Below the pieces are notes generated by a model. The model saw only the letters and a list, made by a program, of their open reading frames with translations, made no database searches and was not told the origin of the DNA. 64,000 bases of DNA, taken from the NCBI GenBank assembly GCA_963580285.1, contig OY757017.1, positions 110,083,245 to 110,147,244 on the forward strand, read 5' to 3'. Shown one piece after another: positions 1,789 to 64,000 of this stretch (positions within the stretch are counted from its first letter, which is position 1; each line of letters starts with the position of its first letter). The translations under genes and the position numbers were made by a program. This DNA comes from Lucinisca nassula (lineage: Eukaryota; Mollusca; Bivalvia; Lucinida; Lucinidae).

Positions 1789-4258
1789 CAGAAGTGACCA
1801 GGAATCAATAAAATGAACCCACAGCTCCCATTAGAGACAAACAAGGGGACGAAACACAACATGAAACATTAGACCCTAATGGAAACATCAAAAGCGGAAA
1901 GCCGAAAGGACAGTTACTTTCCCACAAAATGGCCTATTGGCTATCCAAAACAAAATAATATAAGCGATACAAACATCAAAGACAAACCATAATAAAAATA
2001 AACCGCGACAGAAGAACTGCCTTGGAACCGTCAGTGAAACGAATTCCACTGGGGGCTTAAATCGGTTTTACGTGGCCACATTCCTCGCCCTTACTTCCGT
2101 CGCGATTTAGACAAATTATCAGTGCAACATCTCCGGGAACACGAAAAAAATCAAACAACCACAGAGATGAAACAACAGTGAGGACTCAACAGCAAAAAAA
2201 ACACTGAAATGCCGAAACAAACGAAAACCAACAGTTAGACTCCGATGAGCCCAACCAGAGAGAGAACATCAGGCACCAACCAAAATTACATTGAATTAGA
2301 TGTCTCTAAATCTTAGTAAGCCTTTACGCTGGAACCGTCATAGAGTCTGAGGCCTGACCCACCAGCGTGCAATTAAAGAGTGAAGCAAAGTTGTCAACCG
2401 TGATTGGATTATCTACCATGCATGCAGTCTATCGAATAAAATTTATGTTGTACCCAATATTTTTATATCCAAAATGATTTTACGAAATTATGTGCTGACG
2501 TCATTGCGGTTATATATTTTTCTGAGTTCAAATACTAAGTCACCATAAAATTCGGGTTCCGATAGACCTTGCGCAGAAGAGATTTAAGTCCAATATTGAA
2601 TTTTGAAATTAAATCAGAATGACGTCTTAAAAATTTTGAAGTGGCTTTGCGTAGTTTATGGTACCGATAACCCTGCTTAAGAAGCTTAGCAATTAACAAT
2701 TTATTACGAGTGTTGAAGTCAGTAACATGACTACAAACTCTGGCAAATCGAATAAATTGCGAAATATAAACGCCATAGGATGCCGCACATGAGAAATATT
2801 ACTATCCAAAAACGGAAAATTTACAATCTCAAAATCAAAATCATCGCGCTTATCATAAATTTTGCAAGAAACAAACCCAACTACAATAGATAGATGTACA
2901 TGTAAAACAGAACCTCGGTATCAGAAGAATTTCCTTTATTTAACTGAAGTTCTGTGGGGTAAATTTGACTGATCAAGCCATCTGAATAGGTATTTTATCT
3001 ATATATAGCTTCAATGACTTCATATTTGTTTTCAGCAGAAAGGGACAGCATGAAGCCTCGCTCACCACAAAACAAAAAAAAACAGATCAGCCACAAAGGT
3101 TACGCAATTAGTACCCATGGGAATACCCACAGCATGTCTAAATAACTTAGTACCAAATCTTATGTAAATATTATCAAGTAGAAAGGTGAGAGCTTCACAA
3201 ACTTTCTGACATGACTATAAACTATCATTTTTATGCCCTTCAGAAGTGAAAAAAGCAGTTCTTACATTGCATGCAAGAAAGAGTGAGTCTTCGCTATGAA
3301 ATGTCCATTCAATTAAATCATTAAGTTTTCAGTTTATAAGATTATGAGGAAGTGTAGTGTAAAGGGTGGAAAACATAGGTAGACAGACTTGGAGCGCGAA
3401 AACGTCTGGATTTCAATTTATTTAAAACTGCATTAGAGTTTTATAGACCAAAATAGATTTTTACCTGATCTTTCGAAGACTTTGTCGCAATATTTTATCA
3501 CTTTTTTTTAATGGCAGTTAAACGTGAAGTTAATTATTTAGAGAGTTCGGCGGTGGTACAAGAGCTTGAATTTGCAATAAACCGTTCTTTGTATGGTTTT
3601 TATGAAATTTAGGTAACCAATATAATGTAGGAAGCTTGTCTTGGCCTTCTGTAACACAGGCAGCAAACTTGGTGGCTGAATGTCAAATGGGATCCTCAAC
3701 TAAAGCCCTCTCTACAACTGAAGGCTGCAGTTCATAGGCCTTAGTACCACTAAGTTCTTGCTGATGAGTGTTAACATAGTGAAGCCGTCAAACAACGACC
3801 ACATTGTTAGCGGCCTTATCAGCTGGAGCCAAAACAAACTTCTTATGAAATTCTTGAATACCTAGTTTAAGGTGACGTAAAGATGTCTTAGGTTTAGGAG
3901 GTTATAAGTTGGTATTTTGAGAAAAAAAACGAAATGCGTTTATTCACAAATTTCAGAATGCTAAGTTCCCATTCTTTAAGAGCCTTATGCTCAACATACT
4001 CTCGTTAACACTATCGATTACCAAATTCATTCAAGGCAGTAGCGATTTCATCTCTACATTTATTTCAATCAATTTTAGATGGAAATCGATATTCGGTCCT
4101 TTAGAAATCATATTACGTATCCTAGAATCAGGAATAATTTTAAATTGCCAGTAATAATATGACCAGCGGCAGGATAGCAATACAATCACAGGTATCAGGA
4201 GTGTTAGTGTCAATACCAAGATCATAACAAGTTTATTGAAATTAAAAGTGATAGAGCA

Positions 4259-5137
4259 AAGCCTTTTCAAAATTTTATAGACGCCATTCTGATTTAATTT
4301 CAAAATTCAATATTGGACTTAAATCTCTTCTGCAACAAGGTCTATCGGAACCCGAATTTTATGGTGACTTAGCATATAAATTCAGAAAAATATATAACCG
4401 CAATGACTTCAGCACCCAATTTCGTAAAATCATTCTTCGATATAAAAAGATTGGGTACAACATGGATATTATACGACAGACTGCATGCATGGTAGTTAAC
4501 CCAATCACGGTTGGCAACTTTGCTTCCCTCTTTAATTGCACGCCGGTGGGTCAGGCCTCAGATTCTATGACGGCTCCAACGTAAAGGCTTATTGAAAATT
4601 AGAGAGATAATGTCGGTTGGTGCCTGATGCTCTGTCTCTGGTCGGGCTCATCGGAGTCTAACTGTTGGTTTTCTTTTGCTCCAGCATTTCAGTGGTTTCT
4701 TGCTGTCGAGTCCTCACCGTTGTCTCACCTCTGTGGTTCTTTGATTTTTGTGTTCACGGAGATGTTGCACTGATGAGTTAGGAGGCCTTCATGCGGACTG
4801 AACAAATTATTTGTCTAAATCGCGACGGAAGTAAGGGCGAGGATTGTGGCCACGTAAAATCGATTTAAGCCCCCCAGTGGAAATCTTCCACTGACCGTTC
4901 CAAGGCGGCTCTTCTGTGGCGATTTATTTATGTTGTTGTATGTTACTTACTGTGTCTTTTGGTTTTGGATGGCCATATGGCCATTTTGTGGGAAAGTAAC
5001 TGTCCTTATGGCCTTCCTTTGTTTAGGTTTCCATTATGGTCTGGTCGCTTAATGTTTGTATTTCTTTCCCTTTGGTGTCTTTTATGGGTGGAGTAAGTTA
5101 ATTGTATCAATTCCTGATCTTTGTTTTACTTCTACTT
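4259..5137 (+). mobile_element. 5'-truncated PLE (type I) inserted in the minus-strand PLE
   Basis: Starts inside the RT C-terminal coding region (KAFSKFYRRHSDL...), is open through the usual end ...GQASDSMTAPT and stop near 4580, then has the complete tail to TTCTACTT at 5137. The flanks are the two halves of the minus-strand PLE coding region, so it is a nested, antiparallel insertion. The tail has the CTGATGAG motif at 4770. Confidence 0.85.
4770..4815 (+). ncRNA. Hammerhead-like motif in PLE tail (degenerate, tentative)
   Basis: CTGATGAG is followed about 25 bases later by GA and a perfect ACAAAT-T-ATTTGT hairpin ending in GTC. This resembles a hammerhead core, stem III and cleavage site. 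GUUGC before the core can pair with GCGAC after the site. However one core A is missing, stem II is poor and stem I is not contiguous. The position is conserved in most full PLE tails. It may be a decayed ribozyme or chance. Confidence 0.25.
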
Positions 5138-8571: not shown

Positions 8572-9897
8572 CGAGGACTGTTCAAATATGAATGCAAGAT
8601 GCACTGATGCGAAAATCACCTGGAAATAAATATCAAATCGTAGAAAAACATTTTACCTATACATTGATACCAAAGCTGTTAAAATCCGTGCATTTTAGCC
8701 ATGTATATCGTTCGATTAACACTGTCTACTCTTGTATACTAAAACAAAACATGGTTGGAAGAAGGGCAGAGTACGCCGTTGAAATACGGTCCTATATTAA
8801 GAATCGTTGTATTCTTGGTATACGGTGCAAAGACATTTTTGATGAAATATGTTCGGTTTATGGGCATAATGAAATGTCTTTTCCGACAGTTTTTTGTTGG
8901 TGTAAGAAATTCAGCTGTGGGCTAGGCTCAACAGAAAATACACCACATGATCATCGGCTGAAAAAAGCAACATCTGCTAAGATGGTTGCTAGAGTGAAAG
9001 ATATAGTTGCTACCGATGCACGATACACCACTAGGCAAATAGCTAGTATGGTTGGCATCTCATAAGGAGCAGCTCATACAATTCTGAAACGGGATTTGAA
9101 AATGAGAAAGATCTGTGCTAGATGGATTCCCCATCTGTTGACAGATGAGCAGAAAAAGACACGCGTTCAGTGCGCCAAGAAATTGCTTAAAAAGTTTCCA
9201 AATTACAATGCACGGTCTTTCGCTAATGTCGTCACAGGTGACGAACCTTGGGTTCACTTTTTGAGCCAAAACGAAAGATTCAGAACAAAATATGGGCAAC
9301 AAAGTATTGCAAAAGACCATGCATTGCAAAGCGGACATGAGCTTCAAGAAGGTAATACATGCCATATTCTTTTCAAATCAGGACCCTGCTTTTCAGGTTG
9401 CTGTGCCTAAAGGCAAATCTGTAAATGCGAAGTTTTACAAGAATAAAGTTCTTCTAAAATTGAAGAAATATTTAAAAGAACGAAGACCCGCAACTGGTTT
9501 GGCCAATGTCAGATTGCTACATGACAATGCGTCATCGCACAAGGCGTTCATTGTGCAAGACTATGTGAAGCAGGAAAAGGTTGTTGAACTCCCTCACCTC
9601 CTGTATTCCCCATACCCTGTCCCGTGTAACTTTTTTTTTGTTCCCGCGGCTGAAAAAAATACCTTTCTGGTCGAAAATTTGTACAGCGCAAACACCTCGG
9701 TTCTGCAAATTTCCAGTGCCTTCATAGTATACCTCGAAAAGACTACCAAAATGCATTCAATGATTGGATCAGAAGACTGAAAGTTTGTATATCTGTTAAA
9801 GGGGAATACTTGTAGGGGACAAAATAAATTTTTCATCGAAATCTATCACGGAATCATCTTTATGTGCTTAGTTGCATTCATATTTGAACAGTCCTCG
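8572..9897 (+). mobile_element. Mariner element with intact terminal inverted repeats
   Basis: A 1326-bp element flanked by TA (8570-8571 and 9898-9899). Its 26-bp ends are perfect inverted repeats (CGAGGACTGTTCAAATATG... at 8572-8597, its complement at 9872-9897). It contains one transposase gene in the plus sense. It sits in the intron between host exons 7 and 6, opposite to the host gene. Confidence 0.93.
8592..9780 (+). pseudogene. Mariner transposase, inactive
   Basis: Mariner (D,D34D) transposase that would cut and paste the element at TA sites. The N-terminal helix-turn-helix half is open at 8592-9062 (RCKDIFDEICSVYG, RYTTRQIASMVGIS). A TAA at 9063 interrupts it, reading resumes to about 9360 (ICARWIPHLLTDEQKK, VVTGDEPWVHF), then a frameshift leads to a second frame to 9780 (VRLLHDNASSHKA, LLYSPYPVPCNFFFVP). 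The first two catalytic aspartates are present (codons near 9240 and 9523). The third, 34 residues on at 9628, reads Asn where Asp is expected. The copy is therefore dead three ways, yet its ends could still be mobilised in trans. Confidence 0.92.
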
Positions 9898-10025: not shown

Positions 10026-10302
10026 ACTCTGAAATCTTCCACTGACCGTTCCAAGGCGGCTCTTCTGTGGCGATTTATTTATGTTGTTGTTTGTTACTTA
10101 CTGTGTGTATCACTTGTGTCTTTTAATTTTGGATGGCCATATGGCCATTTTGTGGGAAAGTAACTGTCCATATGGCCTTCCTTTGTTTAGGTTTCCATTA
10201 TGGTCTGGTCGCTTAATGTTTGTATTTCTTTCCCTTTGGTGTCTTTTATGGATGGAGTAAGTTAATTGTATCAATTCCTGAACTTTGTTTTACTTCTACT
10301 TT
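10026..10302 (+). mobile_element. PLE 3' tail, truncated
   Basis: Plus-strand type I tail starting at GAAATCTTCCACTGACCG and ending CTTCTACTT at 10302. It continues without a gap into a hammerhead-retrozyme monomer (TTATCCTTTGGAAGC). The same junction recurs, minus strand, at 28582. Confidence 0.85.
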
Positions 10303-10430
10303 TATCCTTTGGAAGCATGGAATACACCACAAAACTGAAAAATATGGAGTGTACATGTTTTCTGGGCCGGACTAGACATTCACACGCATCATCCTTTTTT
10401 TTTTTCTTTTTTTTTTTTTTGGTTTTGGTT

Positions 10431-10622: not shown

Positions 10623-10729
10623 TCATCACATCAGCGGTAGTGACGTTAACTATGTTCTATAAAAGGGTTATCCTTTGGAAGCAAGGAATACACCACAAAA
10701 CTGGAAAATATGGCACGTACATGTTTTCT

Positions 10730-10775
10730 GGGCCAGACTTGCTAGTTTCGGCCAATTAGGCCTCATCAGTGACCC
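10730..10775 (-). ncRNA. Hammerhead ribozyme A1
   Basis: Type I hammerhead on the minus strand. Stem I GGGUCA (10770-10775) pairs with UGGCCC (10730-10735). The core is CUGAUGA. Stem II is GGCC-UAAUU-GGCC. GAA is followed by stem III ACU-AGCA-AGU and C17 at 10736, so cleavage is predicted between 10736 and 10735. All invariant core bases are present. The 3-bp stem III is typical of retrozyme and PLE hammerheads, which often cleave as dimers. Confidence 0.88.
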
Positions 10776-10990
10776 TCAAATTATTTTCAAAATTCTACCA
10801 TTGAATCATTGATACCAAAGGACAAGAAAATATAAACTGCACTATGATGTAGGGCAGGGAGACTTTTTACCGCCGCCACACATTCCCACACATCAACTGT
10901 AGTGATGTTAAATATATTCTATAAAAGGGTTATCCTTTGGAAGCAAGGAATACACCACAAAACTGGAAAATATTGAGTATATATGATTCT

Positions 10991-11036
10991 GGGCCAGACT
11001 AGCTAGTTTCGGCCAACTAGGGCTCACCAGTGACCC
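10991..11036 (-). ncRNA. Hammerhead ribozyme A2, mutated core
   Basis: Same fold as A1 with stem III ACUA-GC-UAGU, but the core reads CUGGUGA and stem II has lost a pair (GCCC/GGCC). Predicted inactive. Site-to-site distance to A1 is 261 nt. Confidence 0.8.
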
Positions 11037-11106
11037 TAAAAATTATTCAACATTCCCAAAGGACAAGAAAATATAAACTACACTATGATGTAGGACAGGG
11101 AGACTT

Positions 11107-14013: not shown

Positions 14014-15050
14014 TTATGCCCCCCCCCCCCCCCCCCGGAATCGAGATTCGGGGGCAAATAGTTTTTGGCCTGTCTCTTTGTTTCCCTGTCTACAAAAACC
14101 TTAACATTGGGCATTACTTTCGAATGGTAAAAGATAGAGCTTTCATATTTCACATGTGTATACCTTATAACAAGACCTTTCGAGTGGTTTTATAATTTTT
14201 AATCTTATGACCTTGACCTTGACCTTTGACCTACTTTTTTTTTAAAAAAACTTTATCATTGGCCATAACTTTCGATTGGTAAGTGATAGGGCTTTCATAT
14301 TTCACATGTGCATTCCTTGTCACAAGACCTTTCTATTGGTACCATTATTTTTGACCTCGTGGTCTTGACCTTGACATTTGATCTACTTCTTAAAAACTTT
14401 ATCATAGTCCATAACTTTCGATTGGTAAGTGATATGGCTTTCATATTTCACATGTGCATTCTTTTTTACAAGACCTTTCCAGTGGTACCATAATTTTTCG
14501 ACCTCGTGACCTTTAACTTGACGTTTAACCTACTTTTTAAAAACTTTAACATTGGCCATAACTTTTAATTTGTAAGAGATAGGGCTTTCATATTTCACAT
14601 GTGCATTCCTTGTCACTAGACCTTTCTAGTGATACCATAATTTTTACCTCGTTACCATGACCTTGACCTACTGTGTAAAAACTTTAACATAGTCCATAAC
14701 TTTCGATTGGTAAATGATAGGGCTTTCATAATTCACATGTGCATTCTTTTCCACAATACCTTTCCAGTGGTACCATATTTTTACCTCGCGACCTTTACCT
14801 TCACGTTTGGCCTCCTTTTTTAAATCTTTAACATTGGCCATAACTTTCGATTGGTAAGTGATAGGATTTTCATATTTCAAATGTGCATTCTATGTCACAA
14901 GACCTTTCCAATGATCTCATAATTCTTGTCCTTGAGACCTTGACCTACTTTTTTAAGAATTGGACATTGGCCATACCTTTCGATTGCTTAGTGATACTGC
15001 TTTCATATTTAACATGCGCTGTCCGTGGGCATCAGTGTTTCACAAACACA
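14014..15050 (+). mobile_element. Satellite-cored element with hairpin start
   Basis: Starts ATGCCCCC (expanded to 18 C, 14019-14036) with a GAATC..GATTCGGGGGC hairpin. It contains about six tandem units of ~155 bp (GGCCATAACTTTCGATTGG, CATATTTCACATGTGCATTC, GACCTTGACCTTGACC) and ends near GTGGGCATCAGTGTTTCAC. This is a well-known style of bivalve interspersed repeat with a minisatellite core; non-autonomous, mobilising enzyme unknown. Confidence 0.75.
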
Positions 15051-20231: not shown

Positions 20232-22183
20232 CAACAAGAGGGCCATGGTGGCCCTGGGTCGCTTACCTGGTCCAAAGGGTAACAAGTGGGCCCCGGGGAG
20301 ATCCATTGTTGTCCCAAGGGGTATAATTTGCATAACCTTGGTAGTGGTCTAAAAGGTGACGCTTCATATCAATATCAATGACCGGAGACTTAAAGTTTCA
20401 GACAAAGAGATTTTTAAAGGTTTTCCATATATAAGTCTATGTAAAACCTGCGAGCCCCGGGGCACGGCCTGTTTTTACCCCAGAGCTATAATTTGAACAA
20501 TCTTGGTAAAATACACAAGACAAAGCTTCATACCAAATATCAAAAACCTTGGCCTTCTGGTTTCAGACGAAGCGATTTTCAAACGGTTTCCAAATATAAA
20601 AAGTAGAAGTAAAACAAAGATCAGGAATCGATACAATTAACTTACTCCACCCATCAAAGACACCAAAGGGAAAGAAACACAAACATTAAGCGATCAGACC
20701 ATAATGGAAACCTAAACAAAGGAAGGCCATAAGGACAGTCACTTTCCCACAAAATGGCCTTATGGTCATTCAAAATAAAAAAACACAAGTGATACACACA
20801 GTAAGTCTATTTAAAACATGTGGGCTCCGGGCTGGGTCCATTTTTGGCCCCAGGGCACTAATTTGAACAATTTGTTGGCGGTCCACTTCATGAAGCTTCA
20901 TACCAAATATCAAAGATCTTGGCCTTCTGGTTTCAGACAATAAGATTTTCACAGGTTTTCCCTTTACAAGTCTATGTAAAACCAGTGGGAACCGGGGTAG
21001 GCCCATTTTGTGCCCTAGGGCAAGACAAGAAGTTTTTTTAAAGGTTTTCCCTTTACAAGTCTCTGTAAAACCAGTATCCCCGGGACGGAGCCATTTTTGT
21101 CCTCAGGGCTATAATTTGATCAATCTTGGTCGAGGTCCACTAGACAAAACTTCATATCAAATATCAAAGAACTGAGCCTTCTGGTTTTAGACAATAATAT
21201 TTATAAAGATTTCCCTATATAAGTAAATGTAAAACCAGTGGGTCCCGGGGAAGGGGGCATTTTTGGCCCCAGGGCTATAATCTGAATTATCATGTTAGAG
21301 GTCAACTAGACGAAGCTACATACCAAATTTCAAAGACCTGAACCTTCTGGTTTCAGACAAGAAGATTTTTAAAGATTTTCCCTATATAAGTCTAGGTAAA
21401 ACCATAGGACACCATGGCGGGGGCATTTTTGACCCTAGGGCTATAATTTGAACAATCTTGATAGAGGTCCACTAGATGAAGCTTCACACCAAATATCAAC
21501 GACCTGGGCTTTACGGTTTCAGAGAAGAAGATTTTAAAGATTTTCCCTATAAAAATCTATGTAAAACCAAAGGGCCCCGGGGTGGGAGCATTTTTGGTCC
21601 GAGTGCTATAATTTGAACCATCTTGATAGAGGTCTACTAGATGAAACCTCCACACCAAATAACAAAGACCTGGACCTTGCGGTTTCAGAAAACAAGATTT
21701 TGAAAACGTTCCCTATACAAGTCAATGTAAAACCAAAGGGCCCCGGGACGGGGGCATTTTTCGCCCAAGGGCGATAATTTGAACAAGCATGGTAGATGTC
21801 CACTAGATGAAGCTACACACCAAATATCAAAGACCTGGGCCTTGTGGTTTTAGAGAAGAAGCTTTTAAAATATTTCCCTATATAAGCCTACGTAAAAGCA
21901 AAGGGCCCTTGGGCGGGTGCATTTTTGCGATAATTTGAACAATCTTGGTAGCGGTCCACTAGACGAAGCTACACATCAAATATCAAAGACCTGGGCCTTG
22001 CGATTTCAGAGAAGAAGTTTGTTTTAAGTGTTCCCTATATATGTTTATGTAAAACCAAAGGACCCCGGGGCGGGGGGCATTTTTGGTCCTAGGGATATAA
22101 TTTGATCAATCGTGGTAGAGGTCCAATAGATGAAGTTATACATCATATATCAAAGACCTATGCCTTGCGGTTCCAGAGAAGAA
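20232..22183 (+). mobile_element. Satellite-cored element, family 2
   Basis: Head ACAAGAGGGCCATGGTGGCCC...CGCTTACC at 20232, then about eleven tandem units of ~165 bp (TTTTCCCTATATAAGTCTATG, GGGCCCCGGGGCGGG, GGCTATAATTTGAACAATC, GGTCCACTAGATGAAGCT, CAAAGACCTGGGCCTTCTGG). Interrupted by a PLE tail at 20601-20806. The right end is lost at the PLE tail at 22184. Related to 41944-44590 and 135-404. Confidence 0.75.
20601..20806 (-). mobile_element. PLE 3' tail inside satellite element
   Basis: Minus-strand type I tail beginning AAGTAGAAGTAAAACAAAGATC, 5'-truncated after GATACACACAGTAAGT. The array continues on both sides. Confidence 0.85.
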
Positions 22184-22330
22184 GGAAAGTAACTGTCCTT
22201 ATGGCCTTCCTTTGTTTGGGTTTCCATTATGGTCTGGTCGCTTCATGTTTGTGTTTCTTTCCCTTTGGTGTCTTTGATGGGTGGAGTAAGTTAATTGTAT
22301 CGATTCCTGATCTTTGTTTTACTTCTACTT
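22184..22330 (+). mobile_element. PLE 3' tail, short
   Basis: Type I tail from GGAAAGTAACTGTCC to CTTCTACTT (22330), joined to a SINE fragment as at 1191. Confidence 0.85.
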
Positions 22331-27609: not shown

Positions 27610-27642
27610 GAACCCTAGTTTTATGGTGATTTAGTATATAAA
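27610..27642 (+). mobile_element. PLE RT scrap joined to array B
   Basis: GAACCCTAGTTTTATGGTGA...TAGTATATAAAT matches the RT segment encoding SEPEFYGDLVYK; the next base starts the ribozyme array. Confidence 0.65.
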
Positions 27643-27721
27643 TATGTTCTATAAAAGGGTTATCCTTTGGAAGCAAGGAATACACCACAGAAATGGAAAA
27701 TATGAAGTGTACGTGTTGTCT

Positions 27722-27767
27722 GGGCCAGACTAGCTAGTTTCGGCCAATTAGGCCTCATCAGTGACCC
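27722..27767 (-). ncRNA. Hammerhead ribozyme B1
   Basis: Complete type I hammerhead: stem I GGGUCA/UGGCCC (6 bp, one G-U), core CUGAUGA, stem II GGCC-UAAUU-GGCC, GAA, stem III ACUA-GC-UAGU, C17 at 27728. All invariant residues present. Predicted cleavage lies between 27728 and 27727. Confidence 0.9.
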
Positions 27768-27982
27768 TCAGATATTTTCAAAATTCCACAATGGAATCAA
27801 TGATCCCAAAGGACAAGAAAATATAATCTACACTATGATGTAGGGCAGGGAGACGTTTTACCGCCGCCACAGATTCCCACACACCAGCTGTAGTGAAGTT
27901 AAGTATGTTCTATAAAAGGGTTATCCTCTGGAAGCAAGGAATACACCACAGAAATGGAAAATATGAAGTGTACGTGTTGTCT

Positions 27983-28028
27983 GGGCCAGACTAGCTAGTT
28001 TCAGCCAATTAGGCCTCATCAGTGACCC
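27983..28028 (-). ncRNA. Hammerhead ribozyme B2
   Basis: Identical to B1 except the stem II closing pair is G-U (GGCC/GGCU). The core is intact, so probably still active but weaker. B1 to B2 would release a 261-nt RNA. Confidence 0.85.
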
Positions 28029-28179
28029 TCAGATATTTTCAAAATTCCACAATGAAATCAATGATCCCAAAGGACAATAAAATATAATCTACACTATGAT
28101 GTAGGGCAGGGAGACGTTTTACCGCCGCCACACACTCAGAAACAATATATGCTTCAAATATTTCAGTATCCAATTTACA

Positions 28180-28302
28180 TATTTAACACCACTACAGCTG
28201 GTGTTAAGGGAATGTGTTGCGGCCGTAAACAGTATCCCTGTCCTTCGTCATAGTATAATTTATATTTTTTGACCTATAGGATCATTGATTCCATTGTCGA
28301 AA
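28180..28302 (+). mobile_element. Inverted partial monomer of array B
   Basis: ACTACAGCTGGTGTTA..., GCGGCCGTAAA, CATAGTATAATTTATATTTT and ATCATTGATTCCATTGT read as the monomer in the opposite orientation to 27643-28135. Truncated before its ribozyme by a PLE tail. Confidence 0.7.
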
Positions 28303-39893: not shown

Positions 39894-40013
39894 TTGAAGT
39901 TATTCTATGCACATGAAAGCAACATAATTAAATGACCGGAATTTGAAAAGGGTCATAACGACAATAAACGTTTTATTTAACTTGTTGAAAATTTAATCAG
40001 GTGGTCACCTCCT

Positions 40014-41067
40014 CAGCCCCAATCCGTATACCAAACTTCATAAAAGACCTTACAAAGCACGGTTTATTGCAAATTCTAGCTCTTGCACTATCACTGAACT
40101 TTCTAAATTATTAACTTCCTGTCTTACTGCTATTAAAACGCGTGTGATTAAATATTGTGATAAAGTCTTTGAAAGATCAGGAAGAATTCTGTTTTGGTCT
40201 ATAAAAAATTCTATTGTGGTTTTAAATAAATTGAAATCCAGACATTTTCGTGCTTCAAGTCTGTCTACTTACGATTTTTCCACTCTTTACACTACACTTC
40301 CTCATAATCTTATAAAAGAAAAGCTTAATGATTTAATTGAATGGGCTTTTCCCAGAGAAGATTCTCTCTATCTTGCATGTAATGTCAGAAATGCATTTTT
40401 CACTTCTAAAGAGCATAAGAATTATACACTTTGGTCATGTCAGAAAGTGTGTGATGCCCTCACCTTTCTACTTGACAATATTTATATTAGATTCTGTACT
40501 AAGTTATTTAGACAAATTGTGGGTATCCCGATGGGTACGAATTGCGCACCTCTTGTGGCTGATCTGTTCTTGTATTGTTATGATAGAAACTTCATGTTGT
40601 CGCTTTCCATTGATAACCAATCTGAAATTATTGAAGCTTTTAGCTCTACTTCTAGATATTTAGATGATTAATTAAATATTGATAATACCTATTTCGATGG
40701 TTTGATCAGTCAGCTTTACCCCCCAGAGCTTCAGTTAAATAAAGCAAATTCTTCTGATACCGAGGCCCCGTTTTTGGATTTACATCCATCTATTGTATAT
40801 GGATTTGTTTCGTGCAAAATTTATGATAAACGCGATGACTTTGATTTTGAGATTGTAAATTTTCCTTTTTTGGATGGTGATGTTCCTCGTGCGCCATCCT
40901 ATGGCGTTTATATTTCGCAATTAATTCGATTTGCTAGAGTGTGTTGTCATGTAACTGACTTCAACACTCGTAATAAATTATTAACGGCTACACTCCTTAA
41001 TCAGGGTTATCGGTACCATAAACTACGCAAAGCCTTTTCAAAATTGTATAGAATGCATGCATGGTAG
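40014..41067 (+). pseudogene. Penelope-like reverse transcriptase, broken
   Basis: Reverse transcriptase of the PLE; would copy element RNA into DNA at a target. Open from about 40014 through LHKRPYKARFIANSSS (fingers), STYDFSTLYTTLPHNLIKEK (first catalytic Asp), VGIPMGTNCAPLVADLFLYC and SRYLDD (catalytic pair near 40660), where TAA at 40669 stops it one codon later. It then stays open through LNKANSSDTEAPFLDL, DGDVPRAPSYGVYISQLIRF and GYRYHKLRKAFSKLY. At 41050 a deletion joins directly to the ACMVVNPIT coding region out of frame, so the RHSDL...RQT segment is missing. The catalytic residues remain but the protein is split. No endonuclease domain is visible. Confidence 0.85.
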
Positions 41068-47153: not shown

Positions 47154-47995
47154 ATGCCCCCGCCATTCGAAGAATGGTGGAAAGGGCATATAGCGTTGCC
47201 CCTGTCCGTCCGTCCGTTCGTCCGTCCGTGCGTCCGTCCGTGCGTCCGAAACCTAAACGCAGTCAATAACTTCCTTATTTCTCGATGAATTTTAAAATTA
47301 CTCGGCAGAAATGTAAACCATCAAGAGTCGACGTACCACATGCAAAACCCAGGTCCATACCTCCAAGGTCAAGGTCATACTTAGAGGTCAAAGGTCAAAA
47401 AAAGGGTCCGAAACTTAAACGCAGGCAATAACTTTCTTATTCCTTGATGGATTTTGAAATTACTTTGTAGAAATGTTAACCATCATGAGACGATGTGTCA
47501 CGTACAAAACCCAGGTCCGTACCTCCATGGTCAAGGTCAAACTTAGAGGTCAAAGGTCAAAAAAAGGGTCCGAAACTTAAACGCAGTCCATAACTTACTT
47601 ATTTCTGGATGGAATTTTGAAATTACTTTGTAGAAATGTTAACCATCATGAGACGATGTGTCACATGCAAAACCCAGGTCTGTACCTCCAAGGTCAAGGT
47701 CATACTTAGAGGTCAAAGATTAAAAAAAATGGTCTGAAACTTAAACGCAGTCAATTACTTTCTTATCTCTGGATGGATTTTGAAATTACTTGGCAGAAAT
47801 GTTGGCCATCATGAGACAATCTGCCTCACACAAAGCCAAGGTCCTTACCTCCAAGGTCAAGGTCATACTTAGAGGTCAAATGTGAAAAAAGGTCCAAAAC
47901 TTAAACACGGTAAATAACTTTCTATGGATGAATACGAACATAGACATATTTTCAGGCGGGGGCATCCGTGTCCTATGGACGCATTTCTAGTTTTT
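47154..47995 (+). mobile_element. Nested satellite element with 11-bp inverted ends
   Basis: ATGCCCCCGCC at 47154-47164 and GGCGGGGGCAT at 47955-47965. Internal (GTCC/CCGT)n tract (47205-47250) and four ~165-bp units (CCGAAACTTAAACGCAGTC, GGTCAAGGTCATACTTAGAGG). Clean insertion into the family 1 array. Similar in style to 14014-15050. Confidence 0.75.
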
Positions 47996-60439: not shown

Positions 60440-60579
60440 CTTGGCAATCTATCGCGATTCCATTTGGCCATTCCATTGCATTTGAAGAAGTGTTAGAAAT
60501 GATTACAGAAATAGACGTTCCATCCATATTAGCCCTCTGTACTGAGGGTATTTCGCCGCAGATTGTCCAAAACATCAAC
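60440..60579 (-). CDS. Host gene exon 2: YWTD propeller blade
   Basis: A 140-bp exon, minus sense. The acceptor is TTTTTTCAAACACAG before GTTGATG; the donor is TTGCCAAG then GTATAC (a weak donor). It starts in phase 2 and ends in phase 1. It encodes LMFWTICGEIPSVQRANMDG, a middle part, then WPNGIAIDCQ: the F/YWT strand, the xIxRAxMDG loop and the NGLAID loop that define LDLR class B repeats. The calcium or ligand roles of the propeller are inferred from the family. Neighbour phases match on both sides. Confidence 0.92.
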
Positions 60580-61339
60580 CTGTGTTTGAAAAAATACAAT
60601 CACTGCAAAAACTTTTGACTGGACTGGTTTTGGTTTCAAAGAGTGTAAAACCATATACATATCTTCCGCAAAACAGTCTTCAAAATAGTTATGTTTCCGC
60701 TAACATGCTGCAAAAGGTGGTCGGTAGGTAGGAGAAACTTCTTTTTATTATTTTATTTTTCTTATCCCGCAAAAAAGGTCGGGCCTATATTTTTAATATG
60801 TTTATGTTTTTTGTACATGTTTTATTAATAAAATTGTCATGCTGAGATTTGCACTGTATTTTGGAGGGTACTAAATGCCATAAACTTAAATCGCGAAATT
60901 ACTATGGGGAAATGCAAAGACGGCACTGACTAGGGTCGGATATTTAAAAGGTAGGGTCTGTGTTTTAATTTTTATTTTGTTCTTGTATTGAAAAAATAGA
61001 AGAATCGGGGGACCTGAAGCAGAGTCGGGCGGGTTTGCGAAACATTGGCTATTTGGTTAGGCCTTATCACCCTTTTTTTTTTTTTTTTGCAATTTTAGTG
61101 GGTGGAAAACTAATTATATCGAAAGCGGTGTGCCAATTAATCATCTTACTCGATAATTACTCATTTCAGGCACATCAGGAATAATTGACCTCGTATTTCT
61201 AAAAATGATCAATCAATATTCTGTCCTTGATCACTGGTGGTCAGTTTCCTATATGTACTTTATATTTTGTAAGCAGTATCCAATCACGTTAACAAGTTCG
61301 TGAAATGAGAATCCCTCTACACCCCGCTTTATATAGAGA
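60580..61339. other. Intron DNA, nothing recognised
   Basis: AT-rich with a T-run (61073-61089); no exon or shared repeat seen. Confidence 0.4.
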
Positions 61340-61400
61340 ATTATAAAAATCAAAAATTAGTTCCTTTAAGAGCAATGAAAACATTCATAAGAAAGAAGAT

Positions 61401-61446
61401 GGGTCATACTGCGTAGTTTCGGCTAATAAAGCCTCATCAGTGACCA
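61401..61446 (-). ncRNA. Hammerhead ribozyme C1a
   Basis: Stem I GGUCA/UGACC (5 bp), core CUGAUGA, stem II GGCU-UUAUU-AGCC, GAA, stem III ACU-ACGC-AGU, A17 at 61407. Core complete; stem III only 3 bp. Confidence 0.85.
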
Positions 61447-61767
61447 TGTAATGATCCGGCAAAGAAAGCCGGAGGAAACATACTGCAATTTTGCGAATTT
61501 CGAATAGGCAGTCGATTCAAAGACTGATATAAATCAAAAATTGGTCCAAATAATTAAACACCTGTTTAGAATATGAGTTTAAACCAATAATTTATTTCTG
61601 ATTTCTCAGAATATTCACGCTGAGTAAAATATAAACTGCACTATGGTTGATGTACGGGGAGACGTTTTACGGCCGCCACACGGCACAACACCAGCTGCAG
61701 TGAAGGCAAATAAAAATCAAAAATGAGTTCCTTTAAGAGCACTGAAAACATTCATAAGAAAGAAGAT

Positions 61768-61813
61768 GGGTCATACTGCGTAGTTCCGGCTAATAAAGCC
61801 TCATCAGTGACCC
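61768..61813 (-). ncRNA. Hammerhead ribozyme C1b, mutated core
   Basis: As C1a with a 6-bp stem I, but the conserved GAA reads GGA (A13 to G). Predicted inactive, so C1 may not release a unit-length RNA. Confidence 0.82.
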
Positions 61814-61999
61814 TGTAATGATCCGGCAAAGAAAGCCGGAGGAAACATACTGCAATTTTGCGAATTTCGAATAGGCAGTCGACGTTGGTGGTTTGCATGG
61901 GGTATACATTATTTTGTGTTTTATTAATGTTCAAAGATATAGGTTGAGGGTACTAGTTTGAACCACCTAAATGAGGCGGTTCTAACGCACAATTTTTTT

Positions 62000-62221
62000 A
62001 TCAGTGCAATAAAAGAAGGAAGCAAATTTGTCAACCGTGATTGGGTCAACTACCATGCATTCTGTGTGTCGTATAACATTTGTGCTGTACCCAATCTTTT
62101 TATAACGAGGAATGATTTTACGAAATTGGGTGATAATGTAATTGCCGTTATATATTATTCTGAATTTATATACTTAGTCACCATAAAATTCGGGTTCCGA
62201 TAGAACTTGTTGCAGAAGAGA
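62000..62221 (-). mobile_element. PLE RT C-terminal fragment between ribozyme arrays
   Basis: Minus-strand RT end (CAACCGTGATTGGGTCAAC to CTTGTTGCAGAAGAGA). Its 5' cut touches the first base of array C2. Confidence 0.82.
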
Positions 62222-62556
62222 CTTCTTTCTTATGAATGTTTTCATTGCTCTTAAAGGAACTCATTTTTGATTTTTATTTGCCTTCACTGCAGCTGGTGTT
62301 GTGCCGTGTGGCGGCCGTAAAACGTCTCCCCGTACATCAACCATAGTGCAGTTTATATTTTACTTTTGGTCCTTTGAGATCAGCGTGAATACTCTGAGAA
62401 ATCAGAAATAAATTATTGGTTTAGATTCATATTCTAGACCGGTTTTTAATTATTTGGACCCCATTTTCATTTATATCAGTCTTTGAATCGACTGCCTGTT
62501 CGAAATTCACAAATTTGCAGTATGTTTCCTCTGGCTTTCGTTGCCTGATCATTACA

Positions 62557-62602
62557 GGGTCACTGATGAGGCTTTATTAGCCGAAACTACGTAGTATGAC
62601 CC
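62557..62602 (+). ncRNA. Hammerhead ribozyme C2a
   Basis: Perfect type I hammerhead: stem I GGGUCA (62557-62562) with UGACCC (62597-62602), 6 Watson-Crick pairs; core CUGAUGA; stem II GGCU-UUAUU-AGCC; GAA 62583-62585; stem III ACUA-CG-UAGU; A17 62596. Cleavage predicted between 62596 and 62597. Confidence 0.93.
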
Positions 62603-62939
62603 ATCTTCTTTCTTATGAATGTTTTCATTGCTCTTAAAGGAACTCATTTTTGATTTTTATTAGCCTTCACTGCAGCTGGTGTTGTGTCGTGTTGCGGCCG
62701 TAAAACGTCTCCCCGTACATCAACCATAGTGCAGTTTATATTTTACTTTTGGTCCTTTGAGATCAGCGTGAATACTCTGAGAAATCAGAAATAAATTATT
62801 GGTTTAGATTCATATTCTAGACCGGTTTTTAATTATTTGGACCCCATTTTCATTTATATCAGTCTTTGAATCGACTGCCTGTTCGAAATTCACAAATTTG
62901 CAGTATGTTTCCTCTGGCTTTCGTTGCCGGATCATTACA

Positions 62940-62985
62940 GGGTCACTGATGAGGCTTTATTAGCCGAAACTACGTAGTATGACCC
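62940..62985 (+). ncRNA. Hammerhead ribozyme C2b
   Basis: Same 46 bases as C2a, cleavage predicted between 62979 and 62980. C2a plus C2b would release a 383-nt RNA able to circularise. Confidence 0.93.
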
Positions 62986-63043
62986 ATCTTCTTTCTTATG
63001 AATGTTTTCATTGCTCTTAAAGGAACTCATTTTTGATTTTTAT

Positions 63044-63731
63044 TTATTTTGAAATTGTATAGACGTTATTCCGATTTAATTTCAAAATTCATTGTTGGAC
63101 TTAAATCTCTTCTGCAACAAGGTCTATCAGAACTCGAATTGTTTTGTGACTTAGTGCATGCATGGTAGTTAACCCAATCACGGTTGACAACTTTGCTTCC
63201 CTTTATAATTGCACGCCGGTGGGTCAGGCTTAGTTAATTTTATGTAATGTTTGTTGGTGTCTGATGCATTGTCTATGGTTGGTTCTATCGGAGTCTATCT
63301 GTTGGTTTTCTTTTCCTCAAGCATTTCAGTGGTTTCTTTCTGTCGAGTCCTCACCGTGGTTGTTTGGTTTTTGTGTTCTCGGATATGTTGCACTGATGAG
63401 TTTGGAAGCCTTCATGCGGACTAAACAATCTCGATGGAAGTCAGGGCGAGGATTGTGGCCGCGTAAAATCGATTAAGCCCTCCCGCGGTCAAATCTTTTC
63501 ACTAACCGATCCAAGGCAGTTCTTCTGTCGCGGATTATTTTTGTTATGGATTATCAGTTATATATTTTTTGTTTTGGATAGCCAATTGGCCATTTTGTGG
63601 GAAAGTAAGTGTCCGTTTGGCTTTCCGCTATAAAGTTTTCCATTTGGGTCTAGTTATTTAATGTTTATGTCGCTGATGGGAGCTGTGAGTCAGTTGTATC
63701 GATTCCTGACCATTCCATTCACTTCCATTTT
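63044..63731 (+). mobile_element. PLE 3' end (type II) after array C2
   Basis: RT fragment (AAATTGTATAGACG...TTCTGCAACAAGGTC), an internal deletion, ATGGTAGTTAACCCAATCACGG, and the tail to CATTCACTTCCATTTT. Confidence 0.82.
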
Positions 63732-63802
63732 GAAAAAAGGTAAATAATCTTTAAAAAACGGCTCCTGTGGACAAAAAATGTAAAGGTTTCAAAATCAGTT
63801 AC

Positions 63803-64000
63803 CCTTCTGCTGGGTCTACCACAATGTCTCTGACACTATATTCACCAGTAACCAAGTCTAAAGGGTCTCCTTTTGGTGAAATAGTGGCCACGCCAACAAA
63901 GCCACTGCTACCCTCGACAGAAGCAGATGTGTAATAGAGATTTCCCGACGTTGAGTCGATCGCAAGTCTGTCAGCAAAGGCATTCTTAGCACCTAATACA
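63803..64000 (-). CDS. Host gene exon 1 of window (5' partial): YWTD propeller
   Basis: At least 198 bp, minus sense, open to the window edge. The donor is CAGCAGAAGG then GTAACT, phase 2. It encodes ADRLAIDSTSGNLYYTSA, a middle part, and YSVRDIVVDPAEG. RLAID...LYYT and R.IVVDP..G are the strand and loop signatures of LDLR class B (YWTD) repeats. The 2-nt overhang plus G from exon 2 gives Gly, making ...AEGLMFWT, the standard link between blades. The gene continues upstream beyond the window, so start codon, signal peptide and promoter are not visible. No gene symbol is assigned, because the YWTD-EGF-CCP order fits no named vertebrate LRP. Confidence 0.9.

Follow-up and report, generated by a model that had tools for sequence, protein, structure and literature searches.

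A 383-nt hammerhead retrozyme of the bivalve Lucinisca nassula has a fixed insertion end and shares a sequence block with a Penelope-like element

The tandem array at positions 62222-63045 of a 64,000-nt stretch of Lucinisca nassula DNA (contig OY757017.1; the whole stretch is called the window here) is a metazoan non-LTR retrozyme, an element of an already known kind. Most of its relatives end at one fixed position of the 383-nt unit and carry a block of sequence in common with an abundant Penelope-like element (PLE), designated element B. What is new is the manner of copying and the assignment of a helper, both proposed from sequence anatomy: circles made by the hammerhead ribozymes would be copied by the enzyme of element B from unit position 65/66, a reading to which we give a probability of about 0.78.

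The following features of the 383 family are located in the window:
62222..63045, forward strand: 383-family retrozyme array (TRF, repeats, boundaries against unit and consensus)
62597..62979, forward strand: full 383-nt unit between the predicted cleavages (sites from the motif scan)
63044..63045, forward strand: fixed 3' end of the insertion, unit position 65/66 (end positions of arrays)
62557..62602, forward strand: first type I hammerhead, expected to cleave after 62596 (motif scan; sub-threshold Rfam Hammerhead_3 match 62538-62592)
62940..62985, forward strand: second type I hammerhead, expected to cleave after 62979 (motif scan; sub-threshold Rfam Hammerhead_3 match 62921-62975)
61343..61882, reverse strand: second 383-family array (repeats, motif scan, boundaries)
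61401..61446, reverse strand: hammerhead with intact core and a stem I of 5 bp (motif scan)
61768..61813, reverse strand: hammerhead with one core mismatch, GGAA for GAAA (motif scan)

A preliminary description had reported a young, non-coding head-to-tail array with two perfect hammerheads. The head-to-tail arrangement was recovered by TRF (62222..63044, period 383, 2.1 copies, 99% matches), and the array comprises 2.15 units, namely a partial unit (positions 9-383), one full unit and a tail of 65/66 nt. The array is non-coding as had been stated, with 0 of 7 open reading frames of at least 150 aa overlapping it, and no LTRs were found at the boundaries of this array or of the fetched arrays described below. 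Metazoan non-LTR retrozymes have non-coding tandem units of ~150-450 bp with less than 50% GC, and they lack LTRs, a PBS and a PPT. The unit size, the type I hammerhead with its short stem III, the tandem layout, the GC content of 38% (37.9% for the 383-nt unit) and the dispersed young copies match published animal retrozymes (PMC7229834, in part), so that the label retrozyme-like was well chosen. The element probably cuts its own RNA into circles, as judged from its sequence; by analogy with parts of the same report (PMC7229834), the unit 62597..62979 could be released by two cleavages and then circularised. The reversed array is 5'-truncated at unit position 275 and has its 3' end at position 64.

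Both hammerheads of the forward array are 46 nt long and of type I, with perfect CUGAUGA and GAAA cores and a stem I of 6 bp that is, as had been noted, perfectly paired; the cleavage positions predicted earlier agree with those of the motif scan. Stem II has 4 bp, and stem III consists of A15.1-U16.1 and two further pairs closing an ACGU loop, a stem which the motif scan counts otherwise, as three pairs without A15.1-U16.1 and with a 2-nt loop allowed. The exact hammerhead pattern gave 5 matches in the 64-kb window against 0.01 expected. With a relaxed scan 7 hammerheads were found in the window, 6 of them with a perfect core, while 20 Markov windows yielded 20 matches in total and none with a perfect core.

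The Infernal search proposed in the preliminary description bore out the hammerheads in part. In E-value mode, Hammerhead_3 alone matched within 60500-64000, at 26.2, 22.5 and 21.4 bits and thus below the curated cut-off of 48.5, and Hammerhead_1 was not found there; in gathering mode no hammerhead was reported for the whole window. However, the genome (2.93 Gb) contains 22,677 + 22,478 = 45,155 exact copies of the hammerhead-core pattern CACTGATGAGGCNNNATTRGCCGAAAC, which takes in several retrozyme families, and 0 copies of the reversed control pattern. Since the genome is full of exact copies and holds none of the reversed pattern, the Rfam misses are read as a limit of the models. Rfam as sole judge was dropped, because its curated cut-off misses these hammerheads, and the hammerheads are judged instead by the motif scan, by their copy number and by the controls.

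According to folding, the 46-mer reaches its energy minimum (-12.5 kcal/mol) in a fold other than the single hammerhead (-9.4 kcal/mol), and two copies pair as a double hammerhead through the palindrome ACUACGUAGU (-39.3 kcal/mol). For this reason dimeric hammerhead action is likely, as in axolotl retrozymes (PMC7229834, in part), and the seemingly perfect single hammerheads may be weak when alone. The satellite retrozymes of newt and axolotl likewise have a very short stem III with a palindromic loop, which favours dimeric cleavage (PMC7229834, in part). Their units measure 330-350 bp, and they are likened to the present elements, with a stem III of 3 bp if A15.1-U16.1 is counted, by description. 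The whole 383-nt RNA is just mildly more folded than shuffled sequences (z -1.64).

Matches to the 383-nt unit number at least 142 in the genome, from 40 scored of 3022 candidates, with full-unit identities of 94-99% among the scored candidates. The 35 regions around the best-scored candidates (L009-L043) were fetched, a sample in which arrays shorter than one unit are under-represented. It provides, with the window's own, 59 full units, which show a mean identity of 98.4% to their consensus and an intact core in 56 cases, in a set biased by selection towards copies close to the window unit. The earlier statement that the element was recently active thus holds for the 383 family.

The 3' ends of the insertions are fixed. 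Measured against the window unit, 41 of 46 arrays of 383 type end at positions 63-69; measured against the consensus, 42 end at positions 61-69, L039 now included, and 31 of these 42 at 65 or 66. In this count the adjoining arrays of L012 form one row, likewise those of L030, and L042 and L043, segmental copies of L041, are kept. The five that end elsewhere against the window unit are L012 (position 109), the first array of L026 (17), L028 (124), L039 (55) and L043 (360), of which L012, a divergent fragment, and L028, element B itself, are short matches and not arrays. Exact genome-wide counts give the same picture: of 18,977 matches to positions 43-65, 7,171 (38%) continue to position 76, whereas at one control position, counted with patterns of the same length, 12,612 of 15,696 (80%) continue. 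The 5' ends, in turn, are spread over the unit in a manner not different from uniform (KS p 0.33, 40 non-redundant arrays), and array lengths range from 80 to 1964 nt in the same 40 arrays. Position 65/66, at 63044..63045 in the window, would be the start of reverse transcription.

Near-clean empty sites inside other repeats, matching within a few nucleotides, were obtained for L009, L026 and L034 among the sites listed, where the remaining empty sites depart from a clean junction by as much as about 5 nt; for the window array none was found. Copy number together with near-clean insertions identifies the 383-nt unit as a dispersed multi-copy mobile element. In a search for target-site duplications the longest shared words averaged 4.6 nt against 4.3 nt in shuffled sequences, and words of 7-9 nt occurred in 6 of 40 arrays with a shuffled 95th percentile of 6. 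There is consequently no general target-site duplication, and a minority of arrays with a duplication is possible. The Penelopes of rotifers are described as creating short target-site duplications (PMC3846280, in part).

Units of one array derive from one template. At seven sites that separate subfamilies, neighbouring units in 13 multi-unit arrays (L042 and L043 left out) were discordant in 1 of 140 comparisons, where random draw would give 59.8. Moreover, 22 private variants are common to all units of their array and 53 are confined to some of them. Such units fit rolling reverse transcription of one circle with later mutation, and could be obtained from a homogeneous linear multimer as well. 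Ordinary satellite DNA, grown by unequal crossing-over and carrying the hammerhead incidentally, is a highly improbable source of these arrays: it has an example in its favour in one satellite-like locus (L052), where units of the 261-nt type introduced below run head-to-tail through the whole 3.2 kb fetched, but it is contradicted by short dispersed arrays with one fixed 3' end, by the near-clean empty sites in L009, L026 and L034 and by the single-template units.

One locus holds a chimeric array (L012:2433-3950, reverse strand), in which positions 1-320 of the 383 family are joined to positions 141-261 of the 261 family. The resulting 320 nt and 121 nt, the latter with the hammerhead, occur twice in tandem, end at position 65 and are directly followed by a normal 383 array. 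In L012 and in L030 a second array starts at once where the first ends at position 65.

The sister family has a unit of 261 nt with a GC content of 42.5%; what it has in common with the 383 family is the hammerhead together with about 100 nt of downstream sequence. Its members in the window are:
27639..28132, reverse strand: retrozyme array of the 261 family carrying two hammerheads, with its 3' end at unit position 89 (TRF, motif scan, comparison)
10627..11106, reverse strand: older copy of the 261 family in which one hammerhead core is intact (motif scan, comparison)
10302-10375: further 261-type fragment (sequence comparison)

All 10 distinct bounded arrays of this family end at unit positions 85-89, in a sample of 12 fetched loci, among them the array of the window itself, an array that came up twice and a long satellite lacking ends. 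The older copy at 10627-11106 has its 3' end at unit position 109 and is off this rule. A further hammerhead loop variant, CTTATTGG, was seen as one pair with 346-nt spacing at positions 167000 and 167346 of contig C1 of genome assembly G000 and, judged by sequence, probably represents a third retrozyme family.

Downstream of the fixed end, the 383-nt unit contains a stretch that recurs in element B. The copies of this block in the window array and the element B sequences of the window are:
62299..62337, forward strand: recognition-like block, unit positions 86-124, copy 1 (match to element B)
62682..62720, forward strand: recognition-like block, unit positions 86-124, copy 2 (match to element B)
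62004..62224, reverse strand: element B piece adjoining the 5' end of the array (sequence comparison)
63052..63731, forward strand: element B piece directly past the 3' end of the array (sequence comparison)
39997..40671, forward strand: element B reverse transcriptase fragment of 224 aa, Penelope-type (open reading frame, profile comparison)

Comparison of the block covered five PLE loci (L056-L060), and the window and L009-L043 were searched for it. It matches L059:2065-2103 over 39 nt (89.7% identity, E 4.9e-10), with the same result for L060, and its local score is 68, whereas other 80-mers from element B do not exceed 18. In L059 it is situated just past the fixed 3' end of element B, in the tandem unit, and it occupies the same place in two further copies (L028 and L037), downstream of the ends of element B. 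Counted from the fixed 3' end, the common TGTGGCGGC is reached after 28-29 nt in the 383 family, 29-33 nt in the 261 family and 29 nt in element B. Upstream of the start no significant match was found between the 383 unit and element B. The consensus stem into which the block folds is weak (-6.96 kcal/mol, with a covariation term of -0.28), too faint to claim a structure, and the block may also be common by descent, without a present role.

The 3' end of element B, ..CTTCTACTTT, is itself fixed: with a query of 222 nt, 46 of 71 matches in the window and L009-L043 end at positions 218-222, and 34 of these 46 at position 220. If up to 2 mismatches are allowed, read-through past this end is seen at 1,708 sites. 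That element B is a mere frequent landing site was the first idea and was given up once its tandem unit showed the shared block. The left flank of the window array, 62004-62224, is a reversed element B, head-to-head with the right flank. Co-mobilisation was considered for the element B 3' ends that touch retrozymes at 10302, at 28301 and in L043, and was rejected since insertion of element B into retrozymes explains these contacts better. Only the contact in L043 has uninterrupted paralogs: in L043:2943-4670 element B is cleanly inserted in a retrozyme at unit position 360, and the paralogs L041 and L042 are uninterrupted.

From a start at position 65/66, a linear monomer cut at the hammerhead would yield a copy of 65 nt only; therefore either a circle or a multimer is needed as template. 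A linear multimeric transcript that ends at position 65/66, for example by termination at T runs, and is copied from its end would dispense with the circle. This is unlikely. The T-rich stretch CATTTTTGATTTTTATTT does end at position 66, and in 2 of 40 arrays (L010, L019) the 5' end lies no more than 1 nt from the cleavage site, the outcome to be expected of run-off on a cleaved linear RNA. However, termination in the T5 runs would place the end at or before position 62, up to five internal copies of the T runs would need to be read through, and the 261 family ends in ..AACATATT, where no T5 run is present, at nearly the same distance from the block. That distance is also kept by the end of element B. 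Fixed 3' ends, scattered 5' ends and one template per array fit rolling reverse transcription of a circle.

Element B is abundant, with 61,110 first-look candidates in the genome, of which 150 were scored; many of those have open frames of 499 aa. It occurs in tandem with a spacing of 4161 bp, and the repeat ends are 100% identical. By its reverse transcriptase profile, built from 52 database homologues, it is Penelope-type: the profile matches the RT + GIY-YIG frame of L056 with a probability of 96.4 (E 1.1e-9). The Pfam model RVT_1 reaches 13.1 bits against a cut-off of 29.6. A GIY-YIG-like stretch situated before the reverse transcriptase resembles the GIY-YIG end of L056 (BLASTP E 2e-5), and no Pfam GIY-YIG match was found in element B. 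In L059 the frame (2252-4401 and 1-1465) is continuous through four in-frame TGA codons, and at its end lies a sub-threshold SECIS_1 match (24.1 bits, cut-off 35), an arrangement like that of a selenoprotein retrotransposon. The GIY-YIG-like stretch before the reverse transcriptase, the TGA codons and the weak SECIS would fit the Naiad group of PLEs, which was reportedly described by Craig et al. in 2021. Naiad elements are marked by a permuted order, with the endonuclease before the RT, and by selenocysteine codons with a SECIS; in element B the order and the TGA codons were seen in one unit, and the SECIS score is below the cut-off. No hammerhead was found in a motif scan of L059 and L060; some PLEs carry one, and it is not required in all of them. 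An AlphaFold2 model of the 224-aa fragment had a mean pLDDT of 40 and was set aside, and PDB sequence searches gave no meaningful match.

In principle another enzyme, a LINE or a Penelope with a C-terminal GIY-YIG, could move the retrozymes, the block being a relic in them and in element B; we consider this quite unlikely. There are open frames of 763-820 aa that combine RT and GIY-YIG, some of them arranged in tandem, and a 2024 review, as far as available, leaves the enzyme that returns animal retrozymes to DNA between LINEs and PLEs, naming both as candidates (PMC11722881). However, the three such elements that were read (L056-L058) have no significant match to the unit, no block and no hammerhead; a typical LINE is disfavoured because target-site duplications are not evident; and the near-equal spacing of the block in element B and in two retrozyme families would be left unexplained. 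The link between retrozymes and helper concerns one element, because the three other RT + GIY-YIG elements lack the block.

In the proposed copying of circles by the enzyme of element B, read-through transcripts would be cut at each hammerhead, probably by two hammerheads paired with each other at the palindromic stem III, and a host ligase would close the resulting 383-nt pieces into circles. The reverse transcriptase/endonuclease of element B would bind the block at unit positions 86-124 and start the cDNA at position 65/66, about 20 nt upstream of the block, on an AT-rich nicked target. A circle made by the ribozyme would allow the whole unit to be copied, over several turns, and the reverse transcriptase would run round it for 0.2 to 5 turns. 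Arrays formed in this way would have nearly identical units, a 3' end that is fixed and a 5' end that is random, and in most cases no target-site duplication would be recognisable. Element B would thereby mobilise the retrozymes. It is fairly probable that, more generally, animal retrozymes specifically parasitise one Penelope-like element, whose RNA they mimic by means of the recognition block downstream of a fixed start site, that circularisation provides an endless template, and that ribozyme and enzyme are split between a non-autonomous circle and an autonomous helper lacking a ribozyme.

The retrozymes of the mussel Mytilus galloprovincialis (about 350-390 bp; PMC7229834, in part) resemble the present elements, by description, in having a hammerhead of type I, units that measure a few hundred base pairs and stand in tandem, a low GC content, many dispersed copies and no coding capacity. 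The accessible portions of that report propose PLEs as movers on the basis of co-existence and shared features but give, unlike here, neither a fixed insertion end nor a shared helper sequence for the mussel (PMC7229834). With the common block, its near-equal spacing and the fixed start, the argument from co-existence becomes a direct prediction, of one protein and one RNA. No such link was found in the titles or abstract openings of literature on retrozyme/Penelope, retrozyme reverse transcription and Naiad/hammerhead, a coverage that mostly leaves out subscription journals.

A related layout is known from PAc, a Penelope of the green anole. In the available part of its description, the hammerhead cuts at +26, the internal start of reverse transcription lies at +111-118 of the ORF, and RNA up to +172, downstream of the start, is needed (PMC11167929). 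The start thus lies about 85-92 nt downstream of the cut, compared with 65/66 and 85-89 nt in the retrozymes described here. Both share the succession of cut, spacer and start, and in the retrozymes the conserved block comes after the start (PMC11167929, in part). PAc is autonomous, with hammerhead and ORF on one RNA, whereas here ribozyme and enzyme are located on different elements (PMC11167929, in part).

On contig C17 of assembly G000 (1395705-1532758), near-identical retrozyme loci recur every 15-30 kb, apparently as a large segmental tandem duplication. One exact pattern had 0 matches in viral contigs, and phage records likewise gave 0 matches. The window contains further tandem arrays at 14094-15016, 21036-22184 and 47244-47923, with units of about 147, 166 and 163 bp, and none of the retrozyme-unit matches listed falls in them. 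Fragments of a mariner-type transposase are situated at 8592-9780, where HTH_48 scores above and Transposase_1 below its cut-off.
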